From assembly GCA_002407645.1 (NCBI GenBank), contig DHNU01000046.1, positions 1-14,696 of the forward strand: a stretch of 14,696 nucleotides of DNA, in the 5' to 3' direction. Shown here one piece after another: positions 4,897-13,077 of the stretch (positions are counted from its first letter, which is position 1; each line of letters opens with the position of its first letter). The translations under genes were made by a program, and so were the position numbers. The notes under the pieces were generated by a model, which worked only from the letters and a program-made list of their open reading frames with translations, ran no database searches and had not been told where the DNA came from. Source of the DNA: Ruminococcaceae bacterium UBA5408 (GTDB taxonomy: Bacteria; Bacillota; Clostridia; Oscillospirales; Acutalibacteraceae).

Positions 4897-7389
4897 TTAA
4901 TTTAGTCCTGAAGCTGCATTCGGATAATCGTAATTATACTTGTTATATCTTACAGGTTCATAGTCACCGTAATTATATACATTTACTTCACAAAGTCTGC
5001 GGTAAAACAGTCCTGAATAAAATCTGCCGCCCGCCTGATTCCAACGTATTAGTTCTGACCCCATTGCATGGGCATTAGTATAATTTAAATCATGTACAAG
5101 CGAATCCGAGTTCGACAGATTTACATATCCTGAATTAACCCAGCCTTCCAAACCGTTTGACAAACGTACTTTATACCAGCCTTTTTGTGGTTCGGAAAAA
5201 CTGCATTCTGTAACATTCACCTGAGTTCCGTTAGAAACCTGCCCCACCTCTGCACAAGTAAGTCCCGGGGCACTTCTCATTACCGTATTCATTGTAACCG
5301 TTGCAGATATACTGCTGCCCGGGCTGATTGTTGGCGGCACAACCGCATTTTTCATAATTCTGCGGAAATCCATTTCAGCACTGCTGTTAAAGTATCCTGC
5401 GCCTACATTATACGCAAAGCTTATTAAGCAGTCAGCTTGATATTGGTTCATTAAGAACTTATTATTACGAATCATTCGATTTAATTCGGTCGTATAGTAA
5501 GAATTGTTTATCTTATTTACAAGCATTGACCACGCTTCGGTTTTAGTCATATTATTGTAGAATTGTGCATTTTGTCCAAAAGTACAGCCATAACCTATAG
5601 TTGGAACTTGATTTGCTGTTAACATATCGGCATAAACAGTTGAACGATAGCCTTCCCATTGTGCTATTAGGTCAATCATCTTGTCGCTTACCCGCCGTTC
5701 TTCATTTGAAGTGGATTTAAAATCACTATTGGAAGATACAAATGCATTGGATTTAAATCCTGCGTTTGACATTTTCAAATTCTTTGATGAGTACGCTGTA
5801 AATGAATAATCTCCCTGTTTATCAAAAGTAGTAGTAACAGTCCATTTCTTTGTTACTGTATTACCGACTGTTTCCTGAACGCATGAGTCAGCTGTCATAG
5901 TTCTTGTTGTTCCGTCCACCAAATTAATTACAAAATTAACCCCGTCACGCGAATTGTCGGTAACTGCTGTTAATGTTACAGTCGTTCCTATTCCGGCAAT
6001 ATTCGGCGATGCATAGGCTGTTTTAACCGGTTCAGCTTCTGTTACCGTAACATTACATGTGGCAGAAGCTGCTCCGGAACTTGCTGTAATTACAGCAGTT
6101 CCGGGAGACACCGCATAGACATAGCCATTGGATACCGTTGCAACCGATGTATTGCTGCTTGTCCAATTAAGATATGTACCACTTGGGGTTACATCAGCTT
6201 TTATGTACAATGTTTTTCCTGCGGGAACTGTCTGCAAATTAGTTGAAAGCGAAAGTCCGGTAGCATTTGTTCCGCTGTCCGTGCTTACATCATTTGAGTA
6301 GAGTATTTTAATATATTGCGTACTAACATAACCGGTTTGACCGTTTGACGTTTGAACTTTGGTCCATTCCGGATTTGAAGTATCAAGAACCTTAAGTCCT
6401 GTATTCTTAGGAAGATTTGTTATTATTCTTGCAGTTAAGCTTGGGCTTTCCCTAAATCTTAACAAATCCGCTGTAACGGTTGCTCCTACAATGGTATTGG
6501 TTTCTGTATCTTCATTAGGTGGCTTAGCTGCAGGCGGAGTATTATTTTCAACGGATTTCGTATCAGGATTAGAAACAGTGATATCCAAATATTCTTTACT
6601 GCAATAGCCCTGTTTTCCGCTTTCCGACTGAACTTTTGCCCATTGCGAATTTGAATTATCTAAAACTTTAAGCGAAGCACCCTTTGTTACAGTTACTATC
6701 ACTTTATAGTTTAATCCCGGCCCTTCTCTCATGTTTAAATAGTCCTTGGTTTTTGCGGTTATAATCGGATTCTGCGTATCGGGTTTATTCCCTGTCTTTG
6801 GTTTTGTATCGGGGATTTTCGGTTTTATTTGATTTGAAGGCTTATTGGGTTTTGAAGGTGAAGATGTAATATCCAAATATTCACTGTTGCAATAGCCCTG
6901 TTTTCCGTCGGGAGAAACTACTTTCACCCATGCTGAATTATCTGACAAAAGTACTTTTAATGTAGTTCCTTTGCTGAATGTAGTTATAATTTTATTTTGC
7001 GTTCCTGCTCCCTGCCTCATATTAAGGTTTGAGGTAGTAATCGCAGAAATTTCTTTACTTTCCGCAGTCTGAGCGGATGCTGTATTCTTTTTTAAGTCAT
7101 TAGTAATAATTAAGTAATCTTTGTGACAATAGCCTTCTTTGCCGCTTGTGGTTTTAACCTTCGCCCAAGACGAATCAGAATTATCAAGAATTGTCACTTC
7201 GGCGCCTTTGGTAAGAGTTAAAATAACCCTTTTATCAAGTCCGACTCCTTCTCTTAAATTTAAATAGTCAGTAGTCCTTGCTGTTGCTGCAGCAAAAACA
7301 TTTGACCTTGGTAAAGGCACAATTATAACCGCAGCACAAAGTACGAGTGAAACTGCAGTTAATATAATTTTCTTCCAGAAGCTTTTCAA
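4897..7389 (-). CDS. Secreted GH24 lysozyme with five SH3b and Ig-like domains
   Basis: A probable peptidoglycan muramidase acting outside the cell. Residue numbers here count from the upstream GTG at 7398, three codons before my start. After a signal peptide (about 1-37, cleavage near VFAAA) come four SH3b repeats (38-100, 118-178, 212-274, 304-366), with Pro/Lys/Thr-rich linkers after the second and third, a Big_2-like Ig domain (380-452) and a further Ig-like region (455-555). The GH24 domain (about 565-685) shows the catalytic triad E582 (WEGYR), D591 (YAD) and T600 (PTIGYG). A fifth SH3b (697-762) follows, then a segment like the GH24 C-terminal end (W-x-x-AGGRFYSGL-x-x-RR, 786-801). I chose TTG at 7389 because GGAG is 8 nt upstream; the GTG at 7398 abuts the GGAG. 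Likely roles are autolysis, wall remodelling or attack on other bacteria. Confidence 0.88.
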   Translation of the reverse strand: MKSFWKKIILTAVSLVLCAAVIIVPLPRSNVFAAATARTTDYLNLREGVGLDKRVILTLTKGAEVTILDNSDSSWAKVKTTSGKEGYCHKDYLIITNDLKKNTASAQTAESKEISAITTSNLNMRQGAGTQNKIITTFSKGTTLKVLLSDNSAWVKVVSPDGKQGYCNSEYLDITSSPSKPNKPSNQIKPKIPDTKPKTGNKPDTQNPIITAKTKDYLNMREGPGLNYKVIVTVTKGASLKVLDNSNSQWAKVQSESGKQGYCSKEYLDITVSNPDTKSVENNTPPAAKPPNEDTETNTIVGATVTADLLRFRESPSLTARIITNLPKNTGLKVLDTSNPEWTKVQTSNGQTGYVSTQYIKILYSNDVSTDSGTNATGLSLSTNLQTVPAGKTLYIKADVTPSGTYLNWTSSNTSVATVSNGYVYAVSPGTAVITASSGAASATCNVTVTEAEPVKTAYASPNIAGIGTTVTLTAVTDNSRDGVNFVINLVDGTTRTMTADSCVQETVGNTVTKKWTVTTTFDKQGDYSFTAYSSKNLKMSNAGFKSNAFVSSNSDFKSTSNEERRVSDKMIDLIAQWEGYRSTVYADMLTANQVPTIGYGCTFGQNAQFYNNMTKTEAWSMLVNKINNSYYTTELNRMIRNNKFLMNQYQADCLISFAYNVGAGYFNSSAEMDFRRIMKNAVVPPTISPGSSISATVTMNTVMRSAPGLTCAEVGQVSNGTQVNVTECSFSEPQKGWYKVRLSNGLEGWVNSGYVNLSNSDSLVHDLNYTNAHAMGSELIRWNQAGGRFYSGLFYRRLCEVNVYNYGDYEPVRYNKYNYDYPNAASGLN

Positions 7390-7466
7390 TTTCTTCACTC
7401 CAGTACGTAATTTTGAATCCTACAAAGAATAAACAATATATTCATTTTTTTATATAAACTGGATTA

Positions 7467-7495
7467 ATTATAACCTAAATAGCGGTACTATTCAA
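7467..7495 (-). promoter_or_regulatory. Sigma-A promoter for the lysozyme gene
   Basis: Minus-strand TTGAAT (7495-7490), a 17-nt spacer and TATAAT (7472-7467). Transcription would start near 7460, about 70 nt before the lysozyme start, divergent from the micro-operon promoter at 7618. Confidence 0.75.
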
Positions 7496-7617
7496 GTTTA
7501 TATCAGGATTGTTTACAAATTAAACTATGATTAGTGTAAAAAATATTTACTATTCAACAAAAAGGATATATAACTTTTCATACGACGAATTATAATAAAA
7601 AATTCTATAGGCTAATA

Positions 7618-7647
7618 TTGACAAGCTGTCCTAAGCATACATAGTAT
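7618..7647 (+). promoter_or_regulatory. Promoter of the small-peptide operon
   Basis: Perfect TTGACA (7618-7623), an 18-nt spacer and TAGTAT (7642-7647). It lies about 30 nt before the start codon of the Cys-rich peptide. The -10 assignment is uncertain because the region is rich in TA steps. Confidence 0.6.
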
Positions 7648-7678
7648 ATAGTAATCATATTGAAAGGAGGAATTATAA

Positions 7679-7798
7679 ATGTGTCGTAGGTGTAATTGTT
7701 GCAGATGCTGGCGTAACAACTGCTGCTGGGATTCCCGCCTTTGCTGCTGGCGTCCTTTAAGCTGGGATAACTGCAGATGCATATGGAGAGTTTGTTAG
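7679..7798 (+). CDS. Cys/Trp/Arg-rich 39-residue peptide, function unknown
   Basis: A short frame with an excellent Shine-Dalgarno site (AAAGGAGG at 7663-7670, 8 nt before ATG) and its own promoter. The 39 residues contain 12 cysteines (2, 5, 7, 8, 10, 15, 16, 22, 23, 32, 34, 39), 5 tryptophans and 8 arginines, with only 2 acidic residues, so it is strongly cationic. The CRCW and CCW motifs recur and aromatic residues follow Cys pairs, suggesting a repeated metal-binding or disulfide pattern. There is no signal peptide or evident leader/core boundary. Possible identities are a metal-binding micropeptide, a spore-coat or cross-linked structural peptide, or a modified or antimicrobial peptide; the sequence does not decide. 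It is followed after 57 nt by a second small gene and a terminator. I do not recognise the family. Confidence 0.72.
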   Translation: MCRRCNCCRCWRNNCCWDSRLCCWRPLSWDNCRCIWRVC

Positions 7799-7820
7799 TT
7801 AAGTTAGAAGTTTAATTAGT

Positions 7821-7849
7821 TTCTCCCGCCGATAACTGAAGCGGGAGGA
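7821..7849 (+). promoter_or_regulatory. Hairpin sequestering the second gene's ribosome binding site
   Basis: CTCCCGC (7823-7829) pairs perfectly with GCGGGAG (7841-7847); one U-G and one U-A pair extend the stem to 9 bp around an 11-nt loop. The 3' arm contains GGGAGGA, the Shine-Dalgarno site of the ATG at 7856. The stem would block translation of the 30-residue peptide unless opened. Confidence 0.6.
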
Positions 7850-7855
7850 ATAATT

Positions 7856-7948
7856 ATGCAGCTTGTGGATGATTTTGCTCTTAATTATCTTATGTACTGC
7901 ATCAATAACAGGTTAAAATCGTACAAAAGTACAACTAAAGATAAATAA
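7856..7948 (+). CDS. Small 30-residue protein, function unknown
   Basis: ATG at 7856 follows GGGAGGA with about 7 nt spacing, which is near ideal. The peptide has an acidic and hydrophobic first half (MQLVDDFALNYLMYC) and a basic, polar second half (NNRLKSYKSTTKDK); the first half could form a short amphipathic helix. It is the second gene of the micro-operon, ends 6 nt before a terminator, and its ribosome binding site is held in a hairpin. One cysteine (C15) is present. I do not recognise it. The position suggests a partner, regulator or immunity-like role for the Cys-rich peptide, which is only a guess. Confidence 0.55.
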   Translation: MQLVDDFALNYLMYCINNRLKSYKSTTKDK

Positions 7949-7954
7949 ATTTAC

Positions 7955-7990
7955 GGCTGATGGATTTAATCTCCATCAGCCTTTATGTTT
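7955..7990 (+). terminator. Intrinsic terminator of the micro-operon
   Basis: A perfect 10-bp stem (GGCTGATGGA with TCCATCAGCC), 7-nt loop and T-rich tail (TTTATGTTT). It closes the transcript that begins near 7655. Beyond it, 7991-8198 contains no gene I can support. Confidence 0.85.
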
Positions 7991-8198
7991 ATCATAAATT
8001 TTCTTTAAATGCTTTGCGATATAAGTTCTCTCCAAAATTTGTCTGTAAAAGCTCACTCTCCACTATTGTAAATTACCTTTCACCTATTGCATGAGCATAC
8101 AGGCAGCAAGCGGAAATTACAGCTCGACAGACTAAGCGTTTCGAAAAATATCTTAATACATAATAACCCAGTTTTGAAACATGATTATATTAGAAAGG

Positions 8199-9147: not shown

Positions 9148-9199
9148 ACATAGTATTACGGTTAGTGTAATAATTATATCACTAACCGTAATACTATGT
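9148..9199. promoter_or_regulatory. Perfect 20+20 bp inverted repeat, likely PadR operator
   Basis: Arms at 9148-9167 and 9180-9199 are exact reverse complements, separated by a 12-nt AT-only spacer. Each arm carries TAGTATTACGGTTAGTG or its complement, and the outer ends read ACAT and ATGT, the half-sites often seen in PadR operators. It surrounds the -10 box of the PadR promoter. The length suggests two repressor dimers could bind. Operator function is inferred from position. Confidence 0.7.
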
Positions 9200-9202
9200 C
9201 AA
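9173..9202 (-). promoter_or_regulatory. Promoter of the PadR-DUF2812 operon
   Basis: Minus-strand TTGACA (9202-9197), 18-nt spacer, TATAAT (9178-9173). The -10 lies in the spacer of the inverted repeat and the -35 overlaps its outer end, so a bound repressor would block RNA polymerase. Confidence 0.75.
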
Positions 9203-9279
9203 CAAAAAATATTATTTTTATATTATTAGAAAATGTAGTGATTTTTGTGTCGTATCCTTACATATTCGTAATAAAACCA

Positions 9280-9599
9280 AACAATTCAATCTTGTTCCAT
9301 TCCGATAGAGGATCTCAGTATACTTCTATCAGCTTCTGTAGATTCTGTGATGACAATAATATTATCCAATCTTTTTCTAAAAAAGCTATCCTTGGGACAA
9401 TTTTGTAATGGAATCCTTTTTTAAGTATGCAAAACAGGAAGAGTTTTTTCGTAGGTCTTTTATTAACATTTCTGAAGTTAAAATGGCTGCTTTTGAATAC
9501 ATTGAAGGTTTCTATAATTCCAAAAAACCTCATTTTGCTAACCTCATGCTTGCTCCAAACGAAAAGGAAATACAGTTCAGCAAATATATTTTAATCTAA
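9280..9599 (+). pseudogene. IS3-family transposase remnant, 5'-truncated and frameshifted
   Basis: The translated frame shows the C-terminal part of an IS3-type OrfB integrase domain: FHSDRGSQYTS, then IIQSFSKK, and after a one-base frameshift near 9384 DNFVMESFFKYAKQEEFFRR and a final YIEGFYNSKKPH followed by a P-containing tail. The expected KKGYPWDN is recovered by adding one G, so a single-base deletion is likely. The first Asp of the DDE triad and everything upstream are missing. The gene is dead. It lies directly between the PadR operator and the glycosyltransferase. Confidence 0.82.
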
Positions 9600-12645: not shown

Positions 12646-12748
12646 TTTCCCTTTCTCTGCACTTGTGTTCGCCTGCGGACATACTCTTAATAAAGAAAAA
12701 AGACGCCTATTGGCGTCCTTTTCTTTATGGTGGAGATGACGAGAGTCG
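12646..12748. repeat. Direct repeat copy 2: overlaps the genuine tmRNA 3' end
   Basis: Partner of the repeat at 12471-12574. It begins with the same TTTCCCTTTCTCTGC, contains the terminator and runs 21 nt into the functional tmRNA. A 71-nt non-repeated segment (12575-12645) separates the copies; I see no gene in it. Confidence 0.8.
12696..12725 (-). terminator. Intrinsic terminator of tmRNA
   Basis: On the minus strand GACGCC pairs with GGCGTC around AATA, extended by A-U and G-U pairs and followed by a run of T residues, directly after the tmRNA CCA end. Confidence 0.85.
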
Positions 12749-13077
12749 AACTCGTGTCCGAAAATCACTTACCAAAGCTTTCTACGAGTGTAGCCGTTGT
12801 TTTAACATTCCCTCTGCGTAACGCCCAAAGGCAGGCTTTACGTTTCAGTAGCCTTTAAGTCATGACCAAGGTAAAGACATTCCTCAGTTCACGTTCACCG
12901 CTAATCGACGCCTTTATCCGAGCCGCGGTGCTCTCGGTAAAGACGGCAGCTTAATTAAGCTGCGTAAGCAACTTTATTGTTGTTGTTTAATTTTAAAAAT
13001 TTACGGATTTTATAGCGGTTCCGCACCGCTACTCGCTTACTAAGGCTCACAATCCCCGTCGAAACCTTTACATCCCC
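12728..13077 (-). ncRNA. ssrA: tmRNA (transfer-messenger RNA)
   Basis: Rescues stalled ribosomes and tags their products for proteolysis, with SmpB encoded just upstream. The 5' end GGGGATG pairs with CATCTCC before an encoded ACCA; the third pair is G-U, the alanine identity element. The T-arm (GAGTTCGACTC) and the start GGGGATGTAAAGGTTTCGAC are characteristic. The tag frame ends AAC AAC AAC AAT AAA GTT GCT TAC GCA GCT TAA (12987-12955), giving NNNNKVAYAA; the stop codon lies in the loop of a helix, as in other tmRNAs. The resume codon is not obvious: the codon before the first Asn is TTA, not Ala. About 350 nt long, normal for the family. Confidence 0.95.

Follow-up and report, generated by a model that had tools for sequence, protein, structure and literature searches.

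A promoter-defined family of Cys-, Trp- and Arg-rich micropeptides in Acutalibacteraceae with a proposed role in the outer shell of the spore

Does a frame of 39 codons, nearly a third of them for cysteine, encode a protein, and what might such a peptide do for the cell that makes it? The frame lies on the forward strand (7679 to 7798, stop included) of a 14,696-nt stretch of Ruminococcaceae bacterium UBA5408 DNA, here called the window, and its predicted product, MCRRCNCCRCWRNNCCWDSRLCCWRPLSWDNCRCIWRVC, contains 12 Cys (31%), 5 Trp (13%) and 8 Arg (20.5%), a recount that agrees with the 31, 13 and 20% of the initial annotation. The cysteines form CxxC, CC and CxC motifs. An in-frame TAA (7676 to 7678) directly precedes the ATG, and the ribosome-binding site AAAGGAGG (7663 to 7670, forward strand), which has equivalents before the relatives described below, stands 8 nt upstream of it. 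All the elements on which the initial annotation had built a self-contained micro-operon are present: a promoter, the 39-codon frame and its ribosome-binding site, a hairpin, a 30-codon frame with its own ribosome-binding site and a terminator. Its claim that such an arrangement is unlikely by chance was borne out, for the Cys content of the frame, with 200,000 first-order Markov sequences carrying the dinucleotides of the region or of the ORF itself: none of the 8,348 region-type sequences with 38 open codons had at least 12 Cys, and 9 of the 22,360 open ORF-type sequences did. The window's assembly is incomplete (64%, 1.33 Mb), and its exact peptide is known from that one assembly only; judged by its position and by the coding tests on the family below, the frame looks like a real, unannotated gene, the leaderless micro-gene with promoter, ribosome-binding site and terminator that had been proposed.

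Searches with the peptide did not lead to its relatives. At E <= 10 it matched 107 of 398 family genomes (best non-self E, 2.8e-4); that best match proved to be another frame of a 331-aa ORF, and 28 other fetched loci (15 + 13), read on the match strand, held nothing homolog-like. tblastn gave four weak partial matches in phages and one in plasmids, and neither the window peptide against Pfam (E <= 10), NCBIfam, PHROGs and PDB nor five other family members searched by profile, two of them twice, returned a match. Degenerate Cys-spacing patterns picked out 41 stretches in named genomes, all of which were read and none of which, on that reading, has a ribosome-binding site; L082 and L105 carry long Cys-rich frames, likewise without one. 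The window is absent from these 41, so that the scan had no positive control. In viral contigs the same kind of pattern gave at least 120 stretches; among the 92 frames translated by script from the 80 listed, the 25 richest in Cys included none that convinced, and no exact 33-mer occurred there. A profile of 18 genes of the family recovered a single relative from 5.8 billion proteins (E = 0.39), labelled a phage protein and entered in nr (P0001) as hypothetical, from a Caudoviricetes assembly, and a search limited to shared 5-residue words retrieved nothing for the 50-aa member from G234, itself included. The initial annotation had tied the case for the gene to homologs with conserved Cys positions. 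Taken literally this went against it, as no relative keeping those positions was found, and the tBLASTn survey it had suggested brought up no homolog of the 39-aa peptide among the loci read; the family came to light through its promoter instead, homology search having missed the relatives because residue positions are not conserved.

A DNA search with positions 7400 to 8198 against 11 genomes of the window's genus returned as best non-self matches the promoter (about 7612 to 7684) rather than the gene, weakly (E 0.0025 to 1.4) and at seven places in three other genomes. Behind three of the seven lie a ribosome-binding site and another Cys/Trp/Arg-rich micro-ORF; the other four precede one 64-aa gene of a second family (MSL, discussed below), one slipped-frame copy and, twice, no ORF. 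Across the 398 family genomes, the pattern TTGACAAGC-N13-CATANTATR with at most one mismatch was found in 26, of which 13 have a peptide or MSL gene (one G154 site unread). The 34-base pattern with at most three mismatches gave 37 sites in the 11 genus genomes, two of the weakest (G398, G387) being left unread, versus 2 for the reversed pattern. Close promoter copies thus precede 20 peptide genes of 23-50 aa in 15 genomes: 13 genes in 9 of the 11 genomes of the window's genus (inferred to be Caproiciproducens, Acutalibacteraceae) and the other 7 in three further genera of the family, represented by six genomes. Nineteen were collected by script and the G399 gene was added by hand; an atypical G152 ORF, MLWCWDPHIRRWRFFYMGHWIPL, and the slipped-frame G025 copy were left out. 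The two genus genomes that yielded no peptide gene are G296, with MSL only, and G400, which is fragmented.

We call these genes CWR and define them by ATATTGACAAGC-N13-CATANNATR, a ribosome-binding site and a 23-50-aa frame rich in NGN codons, all of which the window has. The 19 scripted genes average 27.5% Cys, 24.8% Arg, 11.6% Trp and 9.8% Gly and fall into the subtypes WNR...RWWF, CNSCW...GCF and WLIP...GCGC..RGCCCRRC, with singletons that include the window's. By these sequence features CWR is an undescribed micropeptide family written mostly with G-middle codons (Cys, Trp, Arg, Gly), its members linked by their promoter, their composition and their codon pattern, and one relative also by where its gene lies. 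The literature surveyed, as titles, abstract openings and passages with few subscription papers, contained no such peptides. In other families of the order, none of 183 genomes had the motif followed by a peptide gene or an MSL gene. Without its -35, the pattern hit 11 of 138 genomes at 13 sites, versus one site for the reversed control. Six of the 13 are known members; the 7 others were read and include two micro-ORFs outside CWR. These two, in G035 and G073 (L395, MCCNGCGNGNSCILILLIIVLVCCCC; L401, MCCGNSNNNSICWIILIVIVLLAIGNGFDD), are Cys-containing and hydrophobic, stand behind CATANTATR and a ribosome-binding site, have no significant profile match and presumably resemble YjcZ. The promoter pattern is also exact at L309 (1728) and L311 (1501) with no ORF behind it, the latter at a place occupied by an MSL gene in a related genome; such ORF-less exact promoters suggest fast gain and loss.

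The promoter of the window, ATATTGACAAGC-N13-CATAGTATA (7615 to 7648, forward strand), is of sigma-K type, with close copies before the 20 peptide genes. Scanning for the consensus alone would not single it out (4 found versus 3.7 expected); we take it as real because relatives share it. In Clostridioides difficile, passages of one study give the sigma-K promoter a -35 of AC and a -10 resembling that of sigma-E, and place dpaA within the sigma-K regulon (PMC3789822). The window has this layout, a -35 AC and a CATA-type -10 at the proper spacing: ACA at 7621 to 7623, N16 and CATAGTATA at 7640 to 7648. So do the dpaA promoters, which read ACA-N16-CATANTATR in 11 of 11 genus genomes, the window's own included, with ACA starting 19 bases upstream. 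Among 19 peptide promoters, ACA lies at -19 in 18, CATA is present in all 19 even though four mismatches were allowed, and CATANTATR is exact in 13 and deviates in 6. The peptide genes were collected by promoter pattern, which makes the likeness of their promoters partly a product of selection and leaves the dpaA set as the independent part of the evidence. A set of eleven 20-kb loci selected for the family (438 kb over both strands) contains 11 ACA-N16-CATANTATR sites, namely those of six peptide genes, two MSL genes, the atypical G152 ORF and two promoters without an ORF.

Other sporulation sigma factors were considered. SASP genes are controlled by sigma-G and spoIVA by sigma-E, and ACA-N15-17-CATANNAT was found in 0 of 9 SASP and 0 of 6 spoIVA upstream regions. 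Further upstream, ATTC (7602 to 7605, forward strand), seen in the logo of 19 peptide-family promoters (A in 17, T in 17, T in 14, C in 15), belongs to a conserved box resembling G[GC]ATTCC that lies some 13 nt 5' of the promoter block, and a similar box precedes MSL genes. The dpaA promoters lack the TTG before ACA and the AGC after it; these flanks and the G[GC]ATTCC box may together be an activator site. A SpoIIID-like box over the -35, the consensus of which is WWRRACARNY, was considered and is not claimed, that string being absent from the paper searched for it. The promoter of the initial annotation stands as a promoter, and its TTGACA is reassigned to the sigma-K-type element.

Codon usage across the family marks out the predicted frames. 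Of the 563 codons in the 20 genes, 436 (77%) carry G as their middle base; in the same frame just outside, over 20 codons on each side, the count is 81 of 400 upstream of the start and 104 of 400 downstream of the stop (20-26%). None of the 229 TGN codons is TGA, which follows partly from how an open frame is defined, and third-base A is found in 5 of 118 CGN, 16 of 55 GGN and 20 of 34 AGN codons. The initial annotation had suggested a substitution analysis, and it bears the gene out: in nucleotide alignments of eight chosen related pairs, which are not independent and from which a ninth pair repeating one of them was left out, all aligned bases are in frame, and differences number 43, 12 and 62 at codon positions 1, 2 and 3, the third-over-first excess (62 versus 43) being modest with G fixed mid-codon. 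On this evidence the CWR micro-ORFs look coding. Cys, Arg, Trp and Gly seem to be exchanged by first-base changes, along with changes of length by whole codons, and what selection seems to preserve is composition, not positions. The frame is not kept everywhere: outside the eight pairs, the G025 copy (L261, G025:C1:503506) has its promoter and start intact, is a net two bases short near the start and encodes the hydrophobic MCHNFFPGPAALMMQTPLVWLFLIA, its downstream DNA still aligning well with the orthologs. Other members of the subtype have retained a hydrophobic overlapping frame that is open, VLQLLLALASAQMALAPLPWLFLIP for example.

The second half of the proposed micro-operon fares differently. 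A 30-aa frame, MQLVDDFALNYLMYCINNRLKSYKSTTKDK (7856 to 7948, forward strand), has a good ribosome-binding site and nothing else in its favour, so that on sequence grounds its status as a gene finds no support. At E <= 1 it finds matches in 60 of the 398 family genomes, its own among them; the best non-self match (E = 0.007), the sole one read, is antisense inside a long ORF. The frame belongs to no Pfam, NCBIfam or PHROGs family, is dissimilar to MSL (hhalign probability 0.1) and has no counterpart after the other 18 scripted peptide genes, and the two-gene operon is not supported. Between the two frames lies a hairpin, TTCTCCCGC-loop-GCGGGAGGA (7821 to 7849, forward strand; 9 pairs, -14.4 kcal/mol), followed by no T run and enclosing in its 3' arm the GGGAGG (7843 to 7848) that is the ribosome-binding site of the 30-aa frame; it could act in processing, be an old terminator or mask that site. 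An intrinsic terminator of 10 pairs followed by TTTATGTTT (7955 to 7981, forward strand) closes the region (1 found by the scan versus 0.3 expected in shuffles), and terminator-like hairpins lie within 200 nt of 11 of 19 peptide genes versus 71 of 300 random pieces.

Gene order in the window is RNase J on the minus strand, rnhA, nifS and nifU on the plus strand, an SH3-lysozyme gene on the minus strand, and the peptide gene on the plus strand. In G346, RNase J-rnhA-nifS-nifU, at 78-90% protein identity to the window, is followed by about 1.6 kb with other possible ORFs, then by a peptide gene in the same direction and an MSL gene. Of the 11 20-kb loci searched, 10 lack both nifS and nifU. The product of the gene between nifU and the peptide gene (4897 to 7398) is an 833-aa SH3/lysozyme/Big2 protein, relatives of which, at nine of nine genus-mate loci (16-19 kb), have other surroundings and no other window protein beside them. 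Elsewhere in the window, two short frames at 9196 to 9599 with an HSDRGSQYTS motif, which we take to be IS3-transposase-like, are apparently remnants, and a tmRNA gene on the minus strand (12728 to 13077; Rfam RF00023, not reported by ARAGORN) adjoins an ORF resembling smpB. Spore formation is predicted from the genes present: the 64%-complete genome has SpoIVA and DpaA genes and no SASP was found in it, SASP being present in 9 of 11 genus genomes. That all 13 carriers in the family sample have SpoIVA carries little weight, since 344 of the 398 family genomes do.

MSL genes share the CWR promoter and, mostly, the ATTCC box upstream, but their products differ in being 43-162 aa long, acidic, Asn-rich and conserved in sequence, with the consensus MSLNRY...DLNNxDLRILDDVIERLVCSRK (the Leu-rich tail also ending in LCSRK) and 113 relatives at E <= 0.001. 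Fifteen MSL promoters were found, one of them on a viral contig. Members include L318, L320, L298, L312, L330, L331 and L375, the last (IMGVR_UViG_3300011772_000035) filed as viral with an MSL gene at 1787 behind the exact promoter pattern. For the three members scanned, NCBIfam returned nothing and Pfam nothing significant, and as far as we have searched the family is undescribed. MSL genes stand downstream of the peptide gene in G234, G346 and G398; in G234 a SASP gene lies about 2 kb from the CWR-MSL pair (L340, G234:C1:453497).

Its composition and a promoter typical of the last stage of sporulation are the reasons for proposing a role in the outer shell of the spore, of which the 39-aa peptide is probably a building block or glue. 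We propose, with a probability of roughly 0.6, that CWR peptides are late mother-cell micropeptides that cross-link the spore coat or exosporium through disulfides; of the functions that the initial annotation had listed, spore coat is thus the one now favoured, metal binding or redox and membrane activity being kept as less probable rivals. Starting from the computed gene family, coding pattern, promoter class and one shared position, we infer how expression, location and cross-linking would proceed. Sigma-K RNA polymerase would transcribe the gene late in the mother cell, and the peptide, made in quantity, would adsorb to the developing spore and join the coat or exosporium. Mother-cell lysis and oxidants would then turn its cysteines into intermolecular disulfides, while Arg-Trp contacts and positive charge would hold it to other layers. 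Composition kept in place of positions is what would be expected of a cross-linking filler. More tentatively, and with somewhat less than even confidence, we suggest that CWR is an interchangeable disulfide and Arg-Trp glue of the spore surface, selected for composition, present in multiple copies and gained and lost fast.

The closest known parallels differ from CWR in several respects. YjcZ of Bacillus subtilis, one of the small sigma-K-controlled spore proteins, likewise comes from a micro-ORF with a sigma-K promoter, but it is a Gly-rich hydrophobic peptide rather than one rich in Cys, Arg and Trp, and CWR has no profile match. SCIFF and other Clostridial Cys-rich RiPP precursors are also short, Cys-rich and found in Clostridia; unlike them, the CWR peptide has no leader and no NCBIfam match, and a Pfam scan of seven window proteins, the two small frames among them, showed no radical-SAM domain or maturase, in keeping with the distinction drawn by the initial annotation. 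CdeC, CdeM, CotY, CotZ, ExsY and CsxA are Cys-rich as CWR is, with a known outer-layer role where that of CWR is proposed; profile and PDB searches, as distinct from one-by-one comparison, brought up no homology of CWR to known coat and exosporium proteins. According to passages of one report, the C. difficile exosporium requires CdeC (9% Cys, 405 aa) and CdeM (8.7%, 161 aa, with CNCCNCCRK repeats) (PMC6101409). It is by analogy with these two larger proteins that the role of CWR is proposed; CWR peptides are shorter, at 23-50 aa, and richer in Cys (27.5% versus about 9%), with 25% Arg and 12% Trp.

Two other functions would use the same composition. A metallothionein-like metal-binding or redox thiol buffer, made by the mother cell and protecting the spore or storing metal and sulfur, would suit CxxC, CC and CxC motifs at 31% Cys and a gene that follows a nifS-nifU pair in both the window and G346. 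We consider it unlikely: Cys spacing is not conserved between relatives (alignment A1), no metallothionein or Pfam match appears at E <= 10, nifS and nifU are absent from most of the loci, as noted above, and 12% Trp with 25% Arg is atypical of metallothioneins. Slightly less probable again is a cationic, membrane-active peptide that aids mother-cell lysis or defends the released spore, for which strong positive charge, Trp/Arg content, the sigma-K timing implied by the promoter and, in one subtype, a hydrophobic WLIPxLxxAG-like head all speak, and against which stand the missing leader, the fact that no export or immunity gene was noticed among the ORFs beside the 20 loci (judged by ORF starts only) and, in our opinion, a Cys content that such a role does not need.

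The remaining rivals question the promoter class or the protein itself. TTGACA is perfect, conserved and fits a sigma-A -35, and TAGTAT at 18-nt spacing is usable as a poor -10, so an ordinary sigma-A promoter driving a vegetative peptide has some appeal; we hold it improbable, as the CATA shared by all 19 peptide promoters is not a sigma-A feature and dpaA has the same spacing and -10 without TTG. Least probable of all, and by our estimate very improbable, is that no protein is made and that the region is a chance frame, a small RNA or a Cys-codon leader sensing charged tRNA through the hairpin at the second ribosome-binding site. In its favour, that hairpin masks the next frame's GGGAGG, the RNA is more stably folded than most shuffled versions, 1 in 100 of which does as well (z -2.46), one copy has a slipped frame, and the 41 chance stretches show that out-of-frame GCTGGC-type DNA gives Cys-rich frames. 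Yet the codon pattern ends at the ATG and the stop codon, the frame is kept in the eight chosen pairs, the other peptide genes have no similar second frame, and Rfam finds nothing above its gathering score in the region (four weak matches, best E 0.066). A spore-surface cross-linker stays the reading we prefer.

CWR genes are easily missed, falling below the usual cut-offs of both length and homology. Promoter similarity can find genes whose proteins keep composition only, and here it serves as a handle: in each Caproiciproducens genome it points to between one and three CWR genes and, frequently, to MSL genes too. If CWR is the interchangeable glue suggested above, gut and soil Clostridia would have a layer of spore biochemistry that has stayed hidden, and the peptides would add an extreme solution, peptides made mostly of Cys, Arg and Trp, to the ways in which spore surfaces are sealed across lineages.
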